Below are positions 12,330 to 55,271 of a DNA stretch of 64,000 nt, one piece after another; within the stretch, counting starts at the first letter, position 1, and each line of letters opens with the position of its first letter. The stretch spans positions 1 to 64,000 of the forward strand of contig SYLY01000040.1 of the NCBI GenBank assembly GCA_005808475.1, written 5' to 3'. This stretch comes from Acidobacteriota bacterium (lineage in GTDB: Bacteria; Acidobacteriota; Terriglobia; Bryobacterales; Bryobacteraceae). The notes under the pieces were generated by a model. The model was not told the DNA's origin. It searched no databases and saw nothing but the letters and a program-made list of their open reading frames with translations. The position numbers were made by a program, and so were the translations under genes.

Positions 12330-14507
12330 TTGAACCGCATCCTCAAGATTATCAACTACATCATCGGCGCCGCTGTACTGGCCGGCGCCGTCTGCGTCTA
12401 CTGGTTCGCATGGCGCGTGTTGCCCCAGTCCTCTGGAACCGTGGAGCTTCCCGTCGCCGCGGCGGCCTCGATCGTTCGCGACAGCCAGGGAGTGCCGCAC
12501 ATCGAAGCGGGCAGCGACGAGGACGCGTGGTTCCTCCAGGGCTACGCCACCGCGCAGGATCGCATGTTTCAGATGGATCTGCTGCGCCGCCAGGCGGCGG
12601 GCGAGTTGGCGGCCGTGCTGGGTCCGGCTGTGCGGGAAAGCGATCTCGAGAACCGGCGCTACCGGCTGAAGAAGCTCGCCGATCAACACGCGAGATCGAT
12701 GAGCGGGCCCGACCGGGCGCCGCTGGCCGCCTACGCGCGCGGAGTCAACGCCTTCCTCGAGCGGAATCGCGGCCGGCTTCCGGTGGAATTCACCTTGTCG
12801 GGCTACGAGCCTTCGCCGTGGACGATCGCGGACTCCCTCTCGATCGCGCTGCAGTTGTTCCGCGCCATGACCGATACCTGGAAAGACGAACTGCTCAAGG
12901 CGAACATGATGGCCGGCGGCGATCGCGAGAAGGTGGAGACCCTGTTTCCGGTGCGCACCGGAGGCGAGATCCAGATCGGGTCGAATGCGTGGGTGATCGC
13001 GGCGAAACGAAGCCAGACGGGCAAGCCGATCCTGGCCAACGATCCGCATCTGCGATTCTCGCTGCCTTCGATTTGGTATCAGGTGCACATGAAGTCGCCG
13101 CTGACCGATGTGGCGGGCATGCAGGTTCCCGGCATGCCGGGAGTGCTGATCGGCCACAACCGGCGGATCGCGTGGGGCATGACGATTCTGCATTTCGACG
13201 CGGCGGATCTGTACGCGGTGCGTGGCGGTCAGGTGGTGCAGGAACCGGAACTGGTGCGGGTGCGCGGGGCGCGTCCGGTGGAATCGCCGGTGTTGACAAC
13301 GCGGCGCGGTCCGGTGGTCGCCACCGATGCCGGCAATGCCTGGGCGATGCGTTGGACGGGCGCCATTCCGGGGATGTTCGAATTTCCGCTCGCCGAGTTG
13401 AACCGCGCCTCGGACTGGTCCGGGTTCCGGCGGGCGTTGGCCCGCTTTCCCGGGCCGGGCGCCAACTTCGTCTACGCCGATGTCGACGGAAATATCGGCT
13501 ATCAGGCGGCCGGAAAACTGCCCGTGCGCACGAACTGGAACGGTGACCTTCCGGTGACCGGCGACGCCGAATGGGACGGCTTCATTCCCTTCGAGGAACT
13601 GCCGTCGGTGTACAATCCGGAGTCCGGCGTGTTGATCACCGCGAATCAGAATCCGTTTCCCGCCGGGTATCCGCGGCGTGTGCATGGCAACTTCGCGGCG
13701 CCGTTCCGCAACCGCCAGATCGCGGCGCGGTTGGCGGTGAAGGAGAAGTGGCGTCCGGACGAGATGGCGGGGATCATGAAGGATGTCTACTCCGAGCCCG
13801 CCCACTTCTTCGCGGGCCAATTGGTGGAGGCGCGGCGGAGACGTGGTGGATCTCCCTCGGAAGACACGCGGGAGGCGGTGAAGATCCTGGCCGAATGGAA
13901 CGGGCAGATGGAGGCGGATCTGCCCGCGCCGTTCCTGGCCACGCTGACGCTCCAGCATTTCCGCAAGGCGATCCTCGAGAGGGCCGCGCCGGGCAAAGGG
14001 GCGGCGTACGACAGCCAGATGGGAATGGCGGTGATGGAGAAGCTGCTGCGGGAACGTCCGCGCGGCTGGTTCGACGATTGGGACGCGGTGCTCGACAAGG
14101 CGCTCGCGGACGCGATCGACGAGGGGAAGCGCGTTCAGGGGCGGACGATGGCATCGTGGAAGTGGGGCGTCCAGAACCGGATGACGCAGGAGCATCCGGT
14201 GGCGTCGCGGCTTCCGTTGGTGGGCTGGTACTTCCGGCTGGGGCCGGTCTCACTGTCCGGCGCGCCGAACACGATCAGCACCACCACGCAGCGTGTCGGA
14301 CCGTCGATGCGGTTCGTGGCCGATGTTTCCGATTGGGATCGGTCGACGATGAACCTCGTCACCGGCCAGTCGGGACACCCGCTGTCGTGGAACTACAAGG
14401 ATCAGTTTTCGAAATGGGCGGCGGGGGAATCCCTGCCGATGCGATTCTCGCGGCCAGACGCCGCCGCCACCCTGGTGGTGACGCCGTCTACGCCCCGGCG
14501 GCCCTGA
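12318..14507 (+). CDS. Penicillin acylase family Ntn-hydrolase
   Basis: A 729-residue precursor, the usual size for this family. It has an N-terminal membrane or signal segment (INYIIGAAVLAGAVCVYW), an alpha-chain region (SIVRDSQGVPHIEAGSDEDAW) and a spacer. The autocatalytic cleavage site lies before Ser222 in GSNAWVIA, which becomes the N-terminal nucleophile of the beta chain. NDPHLRFSLPSIWYQ follows as expected. Substrates could be beta-lactams, acyl-homoserine lactones or other N-acyl compounds. The start may be ATG 12318 or TTG 12330; the latter would remove the overlap with the divergent gene and fits a TATCCT box at 12310-12315. The last 20 bases overlap the 3' end of the convergent sigma gene. 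Confidence 0.87.
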   Translation: MKIHLNRILKIINYIIGAAVLAGAVCVYWFAWRVLPQSSGTVELPVAAAASIVRDSQGVPHIEAGSDEDAWFLQGYATAQDRMFQMDLLRRQAAGELAAVLGPAVRESDLENRRYRLKKLADQHARSMSGPDRAPLAAYARGVNAFLERNRGRLPVEFTLSGYEPSPWTIADSLSIALQLFRAMTDTWKDELLKANMMAGGDREKVETLFPVRTGGEIQIGSNAWVIAAKRSQTGKPILANDPHLRFSLPSIWYQVHMKSPLTDVAGMQVPGMPGVLIGHNRRIAWGMTILHFDAADLYAVRGGQVVQEPELVRVRGARPVESPVLTTRRGPVVATDAGNAWAMRWTGAIPGMFEFPLAELNRASDWSGFRRALARFPGPGANFVYADVDGNIGYQAAGKLPVRTNWNGDLPVTGDAEWDGFIPFEELPSVYNPESGVLITANQNPFPAGYPRRVHGNFAAPFRNRQIAARLAVKEKWRPDEMAGIMKDVYSEPAHFFAGQLVEARRRRGGSPSEDTREAVKILAEWNGQMEADLPAPFLATLTLQHFRKAILERAAPGKGAAYDSQMGMAVMEKLLRERPRGWFDDWDAVLDKALADAIDEGKRVQGRTMASWKWGVQNRMTQEHPVASRLPLVGWYFRLGPVSLSGAPNTISTTTQRVGPSMRFVADVSDWDRSTMNLVTGQSGHPLSWNYKDQFSKWAAGESLPMRFSRPDAAATLVVTPSTPRRP

Positions 14508-15135
14508 CCCTCCGCAAGAGCACCGGCGCCGGACGCGACACGTACAGCCCGGCGCGCTCCCTCATCTTGCGGCGCAGTTCCAGGAACTCGTCCACCGTCA
14601 TTCCGCTTTCACTCACGATGCGCTCGATGCTCCATCCCTCGGCATAGAAGCGCAGCAGCCAAGTCCGCTCCACCGGCGGGAATTGCCGGAGGATTCGTTC
14701 GACCTCGGCCGCGCGCGCCCGGGCTCTGGCTTGATCGCTGGCGCCGGGGCGCGATTCCGGCGACGCATGCCGGTCGATGACGGAGCGTACGAAGGCGGCC
14801 AGATGGCGCGGCTCGCGCAGCCAGCCGCCGCGGATTTCGCGCACCGCGCCCGCCAGTGTCTCGTCGACCAGACTATCGAGGCCGATCGGGCTCAGGTTCA
14901 GCTTCATCAGCAGATGGACGCCCGGCCGGCACATCCGGGCGAACTCCGATTCCGCATCCGCGGCGCTCCGCCGAATGCGGGCCACCAGGCCCGGCCACGC
15001 CGAGCGCGGGTCGTCCGGCATGCCCCGATCGGGCGCCGCGACGGGCGTCCCCTCCGGGGTTTCCGAGTCGATCTCTTCCGCCACCCGCGAATGCGAGTCC
15101 ACGAGGCGTGGAGAATCCGGCTCAAACAGGTACAT
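14488..15135 (-). CDS. ECF-like sigma-70 family factor
   Basis: A 215-residue protein. Residues ~50-125 look like a divergent sigma region 2 (LVDETLAGAVREIRGG, LREPRHLAAFVRSVIDRH). Residues ~145-200 look like a region 4 helix-turn-helix (ILRQFPPVERTWLLRFYAEG, IERIVSESGMTVDEFLELRRK). From memory this matches a group of small sigma factors frequent in Solibacter relatives. No anti-sigma gene is adjacent, so its trigger is unknown. The N-terminal 45 residues are acidic and disordered. The ribosome site GGGAGGGATGA precedes the ATG directly. It converges on the penicillin-acylase gene with a 20-base overlap. Confidence 0.75.
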   Translation of the reverse strand: MYLFEPDSPRLVDSHSRVAEEIDSETPEGTPVAAPDRGMPDDPRSAWPGLVARIRRSAADAESEFARMCRPGVHLLMKLNLSPIGLDSLVDETLAGAVREIRGGWLREPRHLAAFVRSVIDRHASPESRPGASDQARARARAAEVERILRQFPPVERTWLLRFYAEGWSIERIVSESGMTVDEFLELRRKMRERAGLYVSRPAPVLLRRVRAAGA

Positions 15136-15246
15136 TCATCCCTCCCGACCGGCCGCGACGCCGGCTGGTTTGTTTCGTACCCTGGGTGTTCAGGGAGCGG
15201 CTCGAACCAAGGTGCGTTCGAGCTCGCTATTGAATAAGTAGGTTTC

Positions 15247-28193: not shown

Positions 28194-29396
28194 TCAGACG
28201 ATTACCTTGCCCGCGGCGTCGTCCCAACGCACGCGCTTGCCCGCCTTCCGCGAGATGTTGGCGAGCAACGTGATCAGGCAAGCCTGGAACCCGATGCGTA
28301 CCGGCGCCGTCGGAGTCTTCCGCGTGCGGACGCATTCGAGAAAGTTCTGAACGTGTAGCTCGGCCGCGTGGCCGAAGCCTCGCTCGGAGCGCTTGACGAT
28401 GGCGGGTGTGTCCTCGGCGCCCTGCATGTAGACGCGGCACTCTTCGCGCCCGATGTCCATTCGCGCCTTGTCGCCGTCGAGTTGGCTCAGTTGGTCATTC
28501 TTGCTCTGATACTTCATCGCCGCGTAGTTGATGGTTAAGATGCCGGTGAACTCCTCGGGGTACTCGGCGACGGTGATCATGGATTCCGGCTGGTCGAACT
28601 GCTTGGCTTGGATCTTGTTGCCGGTCGCCGTCACCGCCAGCGGATAGGAGGCATTCATCAGCAGGTGCATTCCGTCGAAGGCATGCGCGCCCTGATCGGC
28701 CGCGATGCCGCCGGCGTATTCCGAAAAATAACGCCAGTGACGGAACCGCAGCGGGTCAACGGGCACGCGCCGCTTCGCCGGTCCCTGCCACTGCTCCCAA
28801 TCGAGAGGACCGTCGAGCTTTCCGGACGGCGGTTGGTTCACGTAGTTGTTCAGCCACCAGGACCGCACCATGCGGACCGGGCCGAGCGTCCCCGCCGCCA
28901 CGATCTTGCGGCCCTCGAGGAACAGGTCGTAGCTCCGGCGCTGCATGCCCACCTGCACAATGCACTTGGACGCCTTCTCGGCGCGAATCAGGTCCACGCC
29001 TTGCTCGGGGGTCTGGCACAGCGGCTTCTCGACGTAGATGTCCTTGCCCGCGGCGATCGCGTCGAGGGTCATCCGGTGGTGCCAGTGCTCCGGCGTGGCA
29101 ATCAACACGGCGGTGATACTCTTGTCGTCGAGGATCTGCTTGTAGTTGCGGATCGCCCGGGGGCTTTGTCCACCCTGCGCCTTGGCGGCGACGGAGAGCG
29201 CCTTCTCGAGGTTGGGCTCATAGACGTCGCACACCGAGGCGACCCGCACGTTGGGGTCCTTTTGGAACACGCCCATGACGTAGGTCCCCCGGCCGCCGCT
29301 GCCGACGACGCCGAGGTTGATCCGATCCGATGGCGCGGCTTGCGCCACCAACATCGTGCTGCCCGCGTAGAGGAAGGTTCTGCGAGTGGGGTTCAT
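28194..29396 (-). CDS. Gfo/Idh/MocA family oxidoreductase, TAT-exported
   Basis: A 400-residue NAD(P)-dependent sugar or inositol oxidoreductase. The N-terminus (NPTRRTFLYAGSTML) is a TAT signal, so it folds in the cytoplasm and acts in the periplasm. The dinucleotide loop is GVVGSGGRG, and the catalytic EKP motif is in YVEKPLCQTPEQG. GIAADQGAHAFDGMHLLM supplies the expected D/H pair region. GAGG lies nine bases before the ATG. A TATACA box overlapping a GTATAC motif is about 95 bases upstream (29483-29500). The substrate is probably a sugar, by family and neighbourhood. Confidence 0.9.
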   Translation of the reverse strand: MNPTRRTFLYAGSTMLVAQAAPSDRINLGVVGSGGRGTYVMGVFQKDPNVRVASVCDVYEPNLEKALSVAAKAQGGQSPRAIRNYKQILDDKSITAVLIATPEHWHHRMTLDAIAAGKDIYVEKPLCQTPEQGVDLIRAEKASKCIVQVGMQRRSYDLFLEGRKIVAAGTLGPVRMVRSWWLNNYVNQPPSGKLDGPLDWEQWQGPAKRRVPVDPLRFRHWRYFSEYAGGIAADQGAHAFDGMHLLMNASYPLAVTATGNKIQAKQFDQPESMITVAEYPEEFTGILTINYAAMKYQSKNDQLSQLDGDKARMDIGREECRVYMQGAEDTPAIVKRSERGFGHAAELHVQNFLECVRTRKTPTAPVRIGFQACLITLLANISRKAGKRVRWDDAAGKVIV

Positions 29397-40571: not shown

Positions 40572-41849
40572 ATGAGCCAACGCACACTCACCCGGCGCCA
40601 GATGATCGGCGCCGCTACCGCGCCAACGCTGCTGGCGGCCGCGCAACGGCCCCCTGAGCGCCAGCCTCGAATCGCGGCAATCGCCAGCATCTATCACAAG
40701 TTCGCCCACGCCCAGCATATTTGCGACCGCTTCCTGATCGGCTACGGCTGGAACGGCGCGCATCACAAGCCGGCGATCGATCTGGTTTCGCTCTGGGTGG
40801 ATCAGGTGAAGCCAAACGACCTGAGCCGTTCACGCGCCAAAGAGTTCCCCGTGATGAAGATCTACCCCACCATCGCCGAGGCGCTCACCCTCGGAACCGG
40901 CGAATTGGCCGTCGATGGTGTGTTGCTCATTGGTGAGCACGGCGACTATCCGGACAACGAGAAGGGCCAGAAGCTCTACCCGCGCTACGAGTTCTTCCGC
41001 GAGATCGTCAAGGTCTTCGAAGCCTCCGGCCGGGGCGTGCCGCTGTTCAACGACAAGCATCTTTCCTGGAACTGGGAGTGGGCGCGGGAAATGTACGACA
41101 CCAGCCGGCGCATCGGGTTTCCTTTCATGGCCGGTTCGAGCTTGCCGGTTACCTGGCGCACGCCATCGATCGACATGCCATACGGGGCGCCCGTGAGGGA
41201 AGCGCTGTGCGTGTTCGGAGGCTGGATCGACGGCGGCGATATCCACGCCTTCGAGACGCTGCAGTGCATGAGCGAGCGGCGCAAGGGCGGCGAAAGCGGA
41301 GTGCGGAGCGTGCGGGCCTACCGCGGCGAGAACTTCTGGAAGGCGCTCGGCGAAGGCGCGTGGTCACGGGAACTCATGGAGGCGGCCATGTGCCGCAGCC
41401 ACGAACTGAAGCCCTCACGCGAAGGGTTCAACAACGATTTCCCCTCGCTCGACGCGATGAAGCGGATGTCGAAAAACCCGTACGCCTACGTGGTGGAACA
41501 TACGGACGGGCTGCGGTCGGCCATCGTCGCGCTGGGTGGCGTGGTGGGCGATTTCTGCTTCGCGGCGCGGATCGACGGGCGGAAGGAGCCTCTCTCGACC
41601 CAAATGTACCTGCCCATGCCGCCGGCGCACACGACGCTCGCCAACTTCTTTTCGCCGCAGGTGAACAACGTCGAGAAGATGTTCCTCACTGGCAAGCCGT
41701 CGTATCCGGTGGAACGAACGTTGCTGACCACCGGTCTCACCGCGGCCGGGGTCGAAAGCCTCTACCAGCGCGAGAAACCGATTCTCACGCCGCACCTCGA
41801 AAAGGTGGCGTACGCCGCGCCGAGAGAGTCTACCTTTTGGAGGACGTAG
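40572..41849 (+). CDS. Unknown protein, divergent Gfo/Idh-like fold, TAT signal (paralog 1)
   Basis: A 425-residue protein of no family I can name. The N-terminus (SQRTLTRRQMIGAATAPTL) is a TAT-type signal. It shares long identical stretches with the next gene: GEHGDYPDNE, QKLYPRYEFF, ERRKGGESGV, AGSS-PVTWR. The order of elements resembles Gfo/Idh/MocA enzymes: a first strand (RIAAIASIY), a YPTIAEAL element before VDGVLLIG, a strand plus NDKHLS where EKP would be, SRRIGFPFMAGSS, and a GGDIHAFE site. GxGxxG is absent, so dinucleotide binding is doubtful. A TACAAT box is at 40550-40555. It precedes its paralog with no gap. Confidence 0.8.
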   Translation: MSQRTLTRRQMIGAATAPTLLAAAQRPPERQPRIAAIASIYHKFAHAQHICDRFLIGYGWNGAHHKPAIDLVSLWVDQVKPNDLSRSRAKEFPVMKIYPTIAEALTLGTGELAVDGVLLIGEHGDYPDNEKGQKLYPRYEFFREIVKVFEASGRGVPLFNDKHLSWNWEWAREMYDTSRRIGFPFMAGSSLPVTWRTPSIDMPYGAPVREALCVFGGWIDGGDIHAFETLQCMSERRKGGESGVRSVRAYRGENFWKALGEGAWSRELMEAAMCRSHELKPSREGFNNDFPSLDAMKRMSKNPYAYVVEHTDGLRSAIVALGGVVGDFCFAARIDGRKEPLSTQMYLPMPPAHTTLANFFSPQVNNVEKMFLTGKPSYPVERTLLTTGLTAAGVESLYQREKPILTPHLEKVAYAAPRESTFWRT

Positions 41850-43019
41850 ATGCCGAAACGCGTTGCCGTCGTCGCCACCATCTACGAATACCTGTCGCAC
41901 GGCCAGCATATCGGCGACCGATTTCTCGTGGGCTACCCGTGGGAAGGCCGCTGGCGCAAGCCGGACCTCCAAGTGGTCTCCCTCTACGTCGACCAGAAAC
42001 CGAAGGGCGACCTCAGCGCGGCGCGCGCGAGCGAGTTCGGCTTCACTGTGTACCCGTCTATCGCCGAGGCTCTGCGCCAGGGCGGCGACAAGCTGGCGGT
42101 GGACGCCGTGCTGATCATCGGCGAGCATGGCGACTATCCGGACAACGAGATCGGCCAGAAGCTCTATCCGCGCTACGAATTCTTCAAGCAGTGCGTGGAT
42201 GTCTTTGAAAAGGACGGCCGTGCCGTTCCCGTCTACAACGACAAGCACCTCTCCTACAGCTTCGATAAAGCCAAGTGGATGGTGGACCAGTCGCGCCGCC
42301 TGGGCTTCCCCATGTTGGCCGGCTCGTCGATCCCCGTGACGTGGCGCCTGCCCGACGTGGACATGCCCTTCGGCGCCGAAGTGCGGGAAGCGCTCGCGGT
42401 GGGCTTTGGCAAGTACGATCACACCGACTTCCACGCGCTCGAAGGGATGCAATGCATGATCGAACGCCGCAAGGGCGGCGAATCCGGCGTGCGGCGCGTG
42501 GAGTTGCTCGAGGGCGACGCCGTGTGGAAAGCCGCCGATGCCGGCGCCTGGTCGAACGATCTGCTCGTTGCCGCGCTTTCGCGCAGCGACACGCCGGGCG
42601 GCCTGAGCCGCGAAGACGGGCGCCCCCAGGATCTGGTGGGCTCCGGCCAACTCAGGATTATCACCAGGAACCCATCGGCTTGGCTCATCGAGCGGAACGA
42701 CGGACTGAAGACCACGCTGCTGATGCTGCCCGGCACGGTGAAGGACTTCACCTTCGCCGCCCGAATCAAGGGCCGCGCGGGTATCCTTTCGACGCAGTTC
42801 TTCGCTTCGCCGGAACCGAACGTCACCTATTCGGCGTGCCTCGCGCACAAGATCTCGGAAATGTTCGAAACCGGCAAGGCGCCGTATCCGGTGGAGCGCA
42901 CACTGCTGGTCAGCGGAATCATGGAGGCGGGAATCCGTTCGCGGGGCCGCTCGGTTGAAACACCCCACTTGTCCGTCCGGTACCGCGGCCCCGCCGCCTC
43001 CCAGCACGCGCGCGGCTAG
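41850..43019 (+). CDS. Unknown protein, divergent Gfo/Idh-like fold (paralog 2)
   Basis: A 389-residue paralog of the preceding gene, but without an export signal (MPKRVAVVATIYEYLSHG), so one copy is predicted cytoplasmic and the other exported. It shares GEHGDYPDNE, NDKHLSYSF, AGSSIPVTWR, ERRKGGESGV and PYPVERTLLVSG. Both copies have no GxGxxG loop, and both keep Lys within DKH. The region TDFHALEGMQCM corresponds to the catalytic D/H segment of Gfo/Idh enzymes. The ATG follows directly after the upstream TAG, with GGAGGA nine bases upstream. The next gene, sialidase-like, starts 33 bases later. Function unknown. Confidence 0.82.
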   Translation: MPKRVAVVATIYEYLSHGQHIGDRFLVGYPWEGRWRKPDLQVVSLYVDQKPKGDLSAARASEFGFTVYPSIAEALRQGGDKLAVDAVLIIGEHGDYPDNEIGQKLYPRYEFFKQCVDVFEKDGRAVPVYNDKHLSYSFDKAKWMVDQSRRLGFPMLAGSSIPVTWRLPDVDMPFGAEVREALAVGFGKYDHTDFHALEGMQCMIERRKGGESGVRRVELLEGDAVWKAADAGAWSNDLLVAALSRSDTPGGLSREDGRPQDLVGSGQLRIITRNPSAWLIERNDGLKTTLLMLPGTVKDFTFAARIKGRAGILSTQFFASPEPNVTYSACLAHKISEMFETGKAPYPVERTLLVSGIMEAGIRSRGRSVETPHLSVRYRGPAASQHARG

Positions 43020-43052
43020 CGTTCTCCACGCATCTCAGGAGGCTTCGTCCAA

Positions 43053-44216
43053 GTGCTTGCTTTCAGACTCCATCCCATCATCCTCGCCCTCGTCCCGCTG
43101 TCCTGCCTTGCGCAAACATCGCCCCGGTTGGGCGTCACCGGTCTCACGACCAAGACGATCTACCATTCACCCGAGACTCCCGGCTACACCAGTTGGGTGG
43201 GCTGCTGGCTGATGCCCGGTGGCAAGCCGATGATCTCGTTCCATCAGGCCACTGGTCCGGCGAAGGGCCGTTACCGCGCATCGAAGGAGGTGCTTCACCG
43301 CCTCTCCTGGCCGCCGAAGGGCAAGCCCGAGTATGTGGACTACGACATGACGGGTCTCGACATGGAGGCAATCCACCTGATCTCGAACGACAACATGGCG
43401 AGTTGGGAGCAGGTCGGCACCGAGCACGTCTCGACACCAATGAACGGTTGGACCTGCGAGGCGGAAGAGGCTGGCAAGGATGGCACGATCTATCGCGGTG
43501 TCTGGGGTCAATACCTTCCTTTCCACGACGTGCCTCAGACTGGCTACTGGCAGCGTTCGACCGACGGATCGAAAAGCTGGAGCGAGCCGGCCGTCTTCTT
43601 CGATCCGAAAAAGTGGAGTTCGCTACCGAAGCGGATGCGTTTTCTGCGCGACGGGCGCATCGTGGTGACCGGCGCGGTCCTTCGCCAGCAGCCCGGCCTG
43701 GTCACGCGGGACGATTGGGCCAAACTGCTCGAGCCTGCTGTCTGGTTCTCCGATGACGCGGGCAAGACGTGGTCCGATCCGCTGTTGCTCTGGGATGACA
43801 AGAGCGTGCGTCCGTCCGAGGAGTTGGATGTGGCCGAACTGGCCAACGGCGATCTGCTCGCGGTGATCCGCGTGGACGCGGCCAAATCGCGCTATCAGAC
43901 GGTCATTCGCAGGCAGGGAAAGTCATGGCGCGCCGAGCCCGTGCGCAAGCTGTGGATTCCGCATAGCGGCCATCCGGAACTGCTCGCCACGCGAGAGGGA
44001 GTGGTGCTCCATCTGGCCAAGAACGGCATCGCCGGGACACGCGATGAAGGAAAGACCTGGACCTATTTGGAGGGGCTCCCTCGCACCGGTCACTACCCGC
44101 GGAGCGTGCAGCTTCCCGATGGCCGAATCTTCTGCGTCTACCATACCGGCGCCGACGACTACTACGGACAGCGCGATCAGAGGATCGAAGCCATCACGTT
44201 CCGGCTCGATCCGTAA
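43053..44216 (+). CDS. Sialidase-like BNR-repeat protein, secreted
   Basis: A 387-residue exported six-blade-propeller protein of the sialidase superfamily. The start is GTG 43053 with AGGAGG ten bases upstream, and a signal peptide ends at LSCLAQ. Three Asp boxes (S-x-D-x-G-x-x-W) are seen: STDGSKSWSEP, SDDAGKTWSDP and TRDEGKTWTYL. An N-terminal arginine triad of true sialidases was not confirmed, so exo-glycosidase activity on sialic acid or another sugar acid is inference. It is the third gene of the operon led by the palindrome region. Confidence 0.82.
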   Translation: MLAFRLHPIILALVPLSCLAQTSPRLGVTGLTTKTIYHSPETPGYTSWVGCWLMPGGKPMISFHQATGPAKGRYRASKEVLHRLSWPPKGKPEYVDYDMTGLDMEAIHLISNDNMASWEQVGTEHVSTPMNGWTCEAEEAGKDGTIYRGVWGQYLPFHDVPQTGYWQRSTDGSKSWSEPAVFFDPKKWSSLPKRMRFLRDGRIVVTGAVLRQQPGLVTRDDWAKLLEPAVWFSDDAGKTWSDPLLLWDDKSVRPSEELDVAELANGDLLAVIRVDAAKSRYQTVIRRQGKSWRAEPVRKLWIPHSGHPELLATREGVVLHLAKNGIAGTRDEGKTWTYLEGLPRTGHYPRSVQLPDGRIFCVYHTGADDYYGQRDQRIEAITFRLDP

Positions 44217-53555: not shown

Positions 53556-55271
53556 TCACGCCCGCGAGGTGGGCCCCGTCGCCGTCGCGCGCCAGACCAG
53601 TTCGATGCGCCGGACCCGGAGCGGCTTTTCGAGGCCCGGTCCCCGTTTGTTGAGCCGGATCGCGATCCGGTTGCGGCCCGGGCGCACCAGTTGCGGCGGA
53701 ACGCTGAGCCGGATCGCGTCGAATCGCATGTCCCAGGCTTGGTCTGGCGGGAAACCGATCATCCCGTTTCCCGGCAGCGGCCGCACCTCGTAGCCAACCT
53801 TCTTCCAGCTCGAGGCCGTGTCGATCTCGGCGGGTTCGAGCAACGTCTCGCCGAACTTGACGCTCAACTTGTCTCCGGGCTGCGAGTAGTCGAACCCGAT
53901 CCACAAGTCGACTGACGCCGGCCGCGAAATCCGTCCATCGTCCGGCACGGCGAGAAAGACCGCGCGATCGCCGTCGGCGGGAACGATCTCGAACGGAACG
54001 GCGGCATCCTTCACGGCCGTGTTGTAGCGGAGGAAGTCCGCGCCCGGTTGGCGGCCGGCGGAGAGAAATCCCTCCACCGCGGTGTAGTGTTTGTCCTTGC
54101 CTCGCATCTTCGCCGGATCTGCGATTTCGTCGAGCATGTGTTTCCGCCACCCGCCGAATAGATACCAGTTGGACGCGTAAATGCCGTCGGCGCCATCGCG
54201 CCAAAGGTTGGACGCACTGCCGCGGATCACTTCGTCCGGGCTGATCCGGTAATGATTGCCGTAGCAGCCCAAGCTGGCGTAGACAGGCAGCGGCTTCGCC
54301 TTGGCGAGCGCGCGAAAGTCCTTCACGCCGGGCGCCTCCGTCAAGCCTTGGCCGAGGATGAGCGAGTCGGCGAGATCGTCCGAGATCCACGTGTCGATCT
54401 CGAAGCCGCCTTCGCGGCACCACTCGACACGCTCCGGAATCCGCACGGCGAGTTCGATCGGCCGGCCTCGCTTGGCCGCCTTCGCGCGCAGGCTCTTGCG
54501 GACCTCGCGCAGGAACATCGTCAGAAACTTGCCGTTTTCCTTCTCCGTGCCTCGGCGGAAGTAGAGCGAATGACGAAGGAAGTCGAGCTCGATGCCATCG
54601 AAATCCCAGCGGTCGAAGTACTCTTCCACCACGCGCAGCTTGAGCGCCCGCACGCGCGGATGTTCGAAATCGAGCGCGCTCCACCAATCGAGATCCTCCA
54701 CCAGCCAGTCGGGATTGATGCGCTTGAACGAAGGCAGTTCCGGATTGGGGAGCGCGCCGCGGGGATGCTGCCCGTCATGAATGTCGTTGATGCGCAGAGA
54801 CACGAAGGCGTCGAGTCCGCGCTTGTGACACTCCTCGACGATGACGGCCGGCGGGTTGTGTCCGGCATCGGCCATGGCCTTGGGATTGAGGTACTGATCC
54901 TTGGGATCGACCGGAATCCCTCCGTGCCATTCCTTCTCCTTGGGGAACTCGAAGCGGTCGGCCTGGCCGGGCCATTCGAGGACGTTGCTTTGAAATTCGG
55001 CGACGTTGCCGCTGCCGAAGCTGAACAGCACCGTGTCGACCGCGGAGTTCTCGATCGGCGTGAACACTAGCGAAGTGAACTGTTCGCGCGTCAACGGACC
55101 ATAGGAGCCGGACAGCACCGTCCGCCCCCAGGTGTGGATCGCCGATCCGTCCCAGTTGAACAGCAGCCGGCGTTTGCCGGGGGAAGCTTTACGAGGGACG
55201 GTTTTCGTCCGCGAAAGCGCGGTCTCCGCCGCGCCGGCGGCGAGAAATCCTCTGCGCGTGATGGGCCGCAT
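53556..55271 (-). CDS. TIM-barrel glycosidase-like protein, TAT-exported (module B)
   Basis: A 571-residue protein with TAT signal RPITRRGFLAAGAAET. Residues ~100-360 look like a GHL10-type TIM barrel: ECHKRGLDAFVSLRINDIHD, then WDFDGIELDFLRH, where the acidic residues are candidate catalytic groups, and EIDTWISDDLADSLILGQG. The C-terminal ~150 residues form a beta-sandwich (WIGFDYSQPGDKLSVKFGET). It probably acts on polysaccharides in the periplasm. It starts three bases after the DUF1501 gene of module B, so it belongs to that operon. The exact glycoside hydrolase family is not certain. Confidence 0.78.
   Translation of the reverse strand: MRPITRRGFLAAGAAETALSRTKTVPRKASPGKRRLLFNWDGSAIHTWGRTVLSGSYGPLTREQFTSLVFTPIENSAVDTVLFSFGSGNVAEFQSNVLEWPGQADRFEFPKEKEWHGGIPVDPKDQYLNPKAMADAGHNPPAVIVEECHKRGLDAFVSLRINDIHDGQHPRGALPNPELPSFKRINPDWLVEDLDWWSALDFEHPRVRALKLRVVEEYFDRWDFDGIELDFLRHSLYFRRGTEKENGKFLTMFLREVRKSLRAKAAKRGRPIELAVRIPERVEWCREGGFEIDTWISDDLADSLILGQGLTEAPGVKDFRALAKAKPLPVYASLGCYGNHYRISPDEVIRGSASNLWRDGADGIYASNWYLFGGWRKHMLDEIADPAKMRGKDKHYTAVEGFLSAGRQPGADFLRYNTAVKDAAVPFEIVPADGDRAVFLAVPDDGRISRPASVDLWIGFDYSQPGDKLSVKFGETLLEPAEIDTASSWKKVGYEVRPLPGNGMIGFPPDQAWDMRFDAIRLSVPPQLVRPGRNRIAIRLNKRGPGLEKPLRVRRIELVWRATATGPTSRA

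Follow-up and report, generated by a model that had tools for sequence, protein, structure and literature searches.

Tandem Gfo/Idh/MocA-fold paralogues without the canonical NAD loop, carrying one Tat signal per pair in Acidobacteriota

Two adjacent genes, A and B, in a 64,000-nucleotide stretch of Acidobacteriota DNA (the window) encode paralogous proteins, and structural and sequence comparisons support their family as a distinct, unrecognised branch of the Gfo/Idh/MocA fold. The family lacks the glycine-rich NAD motif, its A and B genes are paired across phyla and occasionally fused, and each Acidobacteriota pair carries exactly one twin-arginine (Tat) signal. Taken together, these features lead us to an explanation that we consider probable, in which A and B would form a heteromeric enzyme that is exported by Tat hitchhiking in Acidobacteriota and performs a sugar-type step.

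Gene layout and fold of A and B

The two open reading frames lie in the same frame, with the boundaries that an earlier note on this DNA had given them (Table 1). The proteins share 52% identity over 394 columns (BLASTP E 2e-135), a likeness far beyond chance, and all four long sequence blocks that the note had quoted as common to both are present. The TAG stop of A (41847-41849) abuts the ATG of B, which, together with the GGAGG within the end of A, implies coupled translation of the two genes. The pair is flanked by a TonB-dependent receptor and a BNR protein. The GTG start of the BNR gene lies 33 bases downstream of B and is preceded by AGGAGG (43037-43042); gene-context comparison showed that it is not conserved beside the A-B pair at other loci.

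Table 1. Features of the A-B gene pair and its downstream neighbour in the window
Feature	Position	Strand	Basis
Subunit A (P0001), 425 aa, Gfo/Idh-fold, N-terminal Tat signal	40572..41849	+	ORF, alignment A1, Tat scan
Tat (twin-arginine) signal region of A, MSQRTLTRRQMIGAATAPTLLAAAQRPPER	40572..40661	+	RR motif and hydrophobic stretch read from sequence; Tat scan
K162 of A, matching K132 of B and the EKP lysine in Gfo/Idh	41055..41057	+	BLASTP and profile alignments
H225 of A, counterpart of B H195 (domain-2 active-site histidine)	41244..41246	+	A1 and BLASTP alignments
Ribosome-binding site of B (GGAGG), within the final codons of A	41839..41843	+	Sequence
Subunit B (P0002), 389 aa, Gfo/Idh-fold, without signal peptide	41850..43019	+	AlphaFold2 model, Foldseek/VIA
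K132 of B (DKHLS), opposite the catalytic EKP lysine in the alignments; invariant, 27/27 (A1)	42243..42245	+	Alignments
H195 of B (DFHALE), histidine opening the second domain; 25/27 (A1)	42432..42434	+	Alignment A1
BNR/sialidase-like beta-propeller (PF13088), possible third operon gene	43053..44216	+	Pfam and sequence

The earlier note had guessed a Gfo/Idh fold from the order of sequence elements, and the guess proved right because structural matches and an independent sequence-profile match agree on it. The AlphaFold2 model of P0002, built from an alignment of 50 relatives, is confident (mean pLDDT 92.8, pTM 0.92). Among the matches listed, all 50 Foldseek chains and all 50 VIA-align PDB entries are Gfo/Idh/MocA proteins, and the listed structures align over residues 1-379 of the model with Z 21.4-24.8, the best of those listed being 6nor (Z 24.8, 277 residues, rmsd 3.3). 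At the profile level, hhalign of the family alignment A1 against 24 canonical Gfo/Idh proteins of the same genome gave a full-length match (Prob 92.6, E 4.5e-7, 310 columns), in which DKH of A/B falls over EKP of the canonical proteins. The narrower, A/B-only alignment A2 gave a much weaker match confined to the N-terminal part (E 0.0016, Prob 16); full-length homology needed the broader A1 rather than A2.

Direct searches place the family at a distance from recognised members of the fold. Neither P0001 nor P0002 has a Pfam or NCBIfam match at E<=1, as expected of the unrecognised branch that the earlier note had proposed, and 27 relatives have no match to the Gfo/Idh families PF01408, PF02894 or PF22725 at the same threshold. 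P0002 by itself matched no solved structure in a sequence search; with the family profile, the Gfo/Idh protein 6z3b came top but at E 0.7, which we take as a lead only. Since GxGxxG and the Pfam profiles were both sought and neither was found, we set A/B apart as a separate branch of the fold rather than as standard Gfo/Idh proteins. With Gfo/Idh/MocA (PF01408 with PF02894/PF22725; GenD2 6nor, Bacillus subtilis myo-inositol dehydrogenase 3nt2, RgNanOx 6z3b), A/B have in common a two-domain fold over the whole length, the order of elements, the EKP lysine (in DKH), the histidine starting domain 2 and remote sequence homology. They differ in lacking GxGxxG and a library match, in conserving GEHGxYP and ERRxGGExGV, and in occurring as a pair rather than as a single protein. 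A canonical Gfo/Idh protein (PF01408) is encoded elsewhere in the window (28197-29396, - strand), and the window's genome holds about 70 matches to that family.

NAD loop and conserved site residues

Members of the Gfo/Idh superfamily are usually taken to depend on NAD(P). The absence of GxGxxG from A and B, already remarked in the earlier note, holds on the sequences and extends to the family: across 153 A/B domains, a search of residues 1-25 for GxGxx[GAS] found no case, and alignment A1 places TxYxxxSH where the glycine-rich NAD loop would follow strand 1. Two further counts were discarded, one of GxGxxG in canonical Gfo/Idh proteins (24/24) as circular, the sequences having been trimmed on that motif, and one in A1 (5/27) as uninformative, having been scored over a 60-residue stretch.

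The DKH and D(I/F)HA elements are both present as the earlier note described. K132, E92, Y96, R166, Q201, R207 and E211 are invariant in 27/27 sequences of A1, across subfamilies. The domain-2 acid (D/E190) lies five residues ahead of H195, versus four in the DxxxH of Gfo/Idh, and the strand-4 loop carries a new invariant motif, GEHGxYP. Relatives have D, E or H at position 48 of P0002, a candidate for the strand-2 acid that binds the adenosine ribose. The invariant K132 and near-invariant H195, together with the family-specific invariant set, argue for a functional active site in which cofactor handling has changed, and by these residues both A and B look like working enzymes. We propose that TxYxxxSH replaces the NAD loop in this branch, while the interdomain cleft would keep K132 and H195 alongside E92, Y96, R166, Q201, R207 and E211. 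A branch that retains the catalytic Lys/His but has lost the NAD loop offers a natural test of how the Gfo/Idh scaffold can be re-used. In two class relatives (L018 and L019, from G195 and G036), the B copies have H195 replaced by Asp and DKH by HKQ, and their N-terminal stretch is out of register; these pairs have probably diverged or decayed.

Two alternatives bear on this site. One is that the fold has been reused as a non-catalytic, exported sugar-binding or scaffold pair, which would fit the lost NAD motif and the setting of the window pair, with a TonB-dependent receptor on one side and a BNR protein on the other. We consider it very unlikely, because many polar residues of the putative cleft, including the catalytic lysine, are invariant across subfamilies that are 36-50% identical. 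The other is an enzyme that works without a cofactor or without redox chemistry, such as an isomerase, a dehydratase or a hydrolase acting on a sugar derivative, in which Lys and His would perform acid-base chemistry after the loss of NAD binding. The replacement of GxGxxG in every A/B domain checked, the D/E/H variation at the possible ribose-holding position 48 and the new strand-4 motif all speak for this reading; yet variant loops can still bind dinucleotides, and export in the folded state by Tat, together with the lactonase and dehydratase neighbours of single-gene relatives (see below), suits a dehydrogenase slot. We regard it as a serious possibility, but one that we would sooner doubt than adopt.

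Pairing, fusion and the Tat signal

At most of the 80 loci examined, which come from Acidobacteria, Poribacteria, Latescibacterota, Planctomycetota, Gemmatimonadetes and Chloroflexi, gene A lies directly upstream of B, mostly 5-100 nt away. The A-then-B tandem is ancient and conserved across at least six phyla. In two lineages, a Chloroflexi record (L102, with a proline-rich linker) and the window's genus, the two genes are fused. An AlphaFold2 model of the natural L102 fusion (809 residues; pLDDT 86.4, pTM 0.84) was made from an alignment in which A-B rows were read through stop codons, keeping partners paired, and it suggests a two-lobed particle whose halves are confidently placed relative to each other, although the pTM of a fused chain bears only indirectly on whether the subunits share an interface. 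The window's own genome carries a fused A-B gene of 836 aa with one N-terminal Tat signal on contig C111 (L112, 9917-12424, + strand), and L207 and L225, from further genomes of the genus, carry the same fusion.

The earlier note had recorded a Tat signal on A (MSQRTLTRRQMIGAATAPTLLAAAQ) and none on B. Both observations are real, and what it did not record is the strictness of this arrangement across the family. Tat signals were called by a pattern scan and reading by eye, in 68 pairs and then in 44 more, and the count was restricted to separately encoded Acidobacteriota pairs with near-duplicates removed (n=60). The signal is on A only in 39 of these pairs and on B only in 21, with no pair having both or neither; L188 and L204 were missed by the pattern and accepted by eye. 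Three pattern matches were rejected as spurious, those in L098 and L110 and one at an internal site of the fused L225. The fused copies of the window's genus have a single, N-terminal signal, and in 36 pairs from outside Acidobacteriota neither the scan nor the eye found any. In a tree built on the concatenated pair, well-supported branches require three or more switches of the signal from one subunit to the other, so the one-signal rule has persisted through several such moves. In the window's genome, each of the eight single-gene relatives has a Tat signal of its own.

The Tat hitchhiker mechanism predicts one signal per exported complex (PMC10924467, PMC4273604), and the single signal per pair is the signature of a complex co-exported in this way. 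Judged from their sequences, A and B of Acidobacteriota are apparently exported together on one Tat signal. We propose that they are the subunits of an obligate heterodimer, or of a dimer of dimers, which would fold and assemble in the cytoplasm before the Tat translocon exports it on the signal peptide of whichever subunit, A or B, bears one, its partner hitchhiking; in the sampled phyla outside Acidobacteriota, the pair would remain cytoplasmic. As in known hitchhiker complexes, only one subunit bears a signal peptide. Unlike in those systems, A and B are close paralogues between which the signal has moved several times, and a Tat signal that hops between paralogous subunits without ever being on both or neither makes a clean evolutionary case for hitchhiker export.

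It could instead be argued that A and B are independent homomeric neighbours, with B cytoplasmic and A periplasmic, given that both keep the same conserved residues and that single-gene relatives exist and must function alone. Independent proteins would at times show both signals or neither, so the exact rule in 60/60 Acidobacteriota pairs despite the side switches counts against independence, as do the A-B order kept across phyla and the gene fusions. We give this alternative little credence and prefer a hitchhiking A-B complex.

Gene context, possible function and distribution

The neighbours of A-B pairs vary widely and include M19 dipeptidase, amidohydrolase, creatininase, PhyH, PEP hydrolase and aldo-keto reductase genes. 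Single-gene relatives adjoin genes for SGL gluconolactonase, MR_MLE (mandelate-racemase-type) dehydratase, UxuA-like proteins and SSF sodium:solute symporters, as well as canonical Gfo/Idh and heparinase-like genes, and these sugar-type neighbours point to sugar or sugar-acid breakdown. Because the pair's own neighbours vary so widely, its substrate is a guess borrowed from the single-gene relatives. When a conserved partner of the pair was sought in gene context, only Poribacteria were found to share a local set (for example L106, 1318-9170), with MBL-fold, VOC and PhyH genes upstream of the pair and a PEP-hydrolase-like protein downstream; as the set is spread over several kb, we draw no function from it.

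Most likely, the pair would carry out one periplasmic step of a pathway that degrades a sugar or sugar-acid derivative. We favour a redox step, for which the protein would bind a nucleotide or some other cofactor ahead of export, over cofactor-free chemistry, a non-redox role being nearly as likely. A parallel is the glucose-fructose oxidoreductase (GFOR) of Zymomonas mobilis, which is exported by Tat. GFOR has a GxGxxG loop and tightly bound NADP, and it is among the listed Foldseek matches of the P0002 model. Like A/B, GFOR and the aldose-aldose oxidoreductase of Caulobacter have the Gfo/Idh fold, and both are described with Tat signals, GFOR being periplasmic (PMC4628093). In contrast to the A-B pair, GFOR carries its own signal and has no partner subunit.

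One scan of a genome collection gave at least 581 confirmed places for a family that is nameless in the libraries searched and now gains a fold, a partner and probable cell locations. Hundreds of uncultured bacteria carry it, and the places lie in Acidobacteria, Poribacteria, Latescibacterota, Handelsmanbacteria, Planctomycetota, Gemmatimonadetes and Chloroflexi. The family occurs in 79/85 sampled genomes of one Poribacteria phylum, 79/150 of the window's family, 9/199 of the window's phylum and 8/149 of Planctomycetota. Of the 14 copies in the window's genome alone, eight are single-gene relatives and the rest form three A-B pairs, one of which is fused. No account of the A/B family emerged from literature searches that joined Gfo/Idh/MocA to Poribacteria, Acidobacteria or Tat. 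The broader proposal, a large unnamed class of heteromeric enzymes with the Gfo/Idh fold that has abandoned the canonical NAD site, in favour of another cofactor or of non-redox chemistry, and is exported by Tat as a paralogue pair with the signal on either subunit but only one, is put forward tentatively, its chances falling somewhat short of even.

Several minor observations concern relatives and neighbours. A single-gene relative in the window's genome (L012, G000:C125:19037-20131) contains an in-frame TGA, from decay of the copy or a sequencing error. A plasmid search yielded one relative, 33% identical to P0002 and annotated as "conserved hypothetical protein", on the conjugative plasmid pHiyo8-1 of Arthrobacter sp. 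Hiyo8 (L241, 8419-10269); it is the lone actinobacterial relative. In the window, 53559-55271 (- strand) encodes a Tat-signalled protein with an NWDG motif near its N-terminus and no Pfam match, a homologue of which (L112, 12503-14134, + strand) follows the fused A-B gene. At 14144-15181 (- strand) of the same locus lies a gene for a 346-aa protein (KLRIGAMAVGEYTFWGIWADVL...) without a Pfam match, which by eye looks Gfo/Idh-like without GxGxxG.
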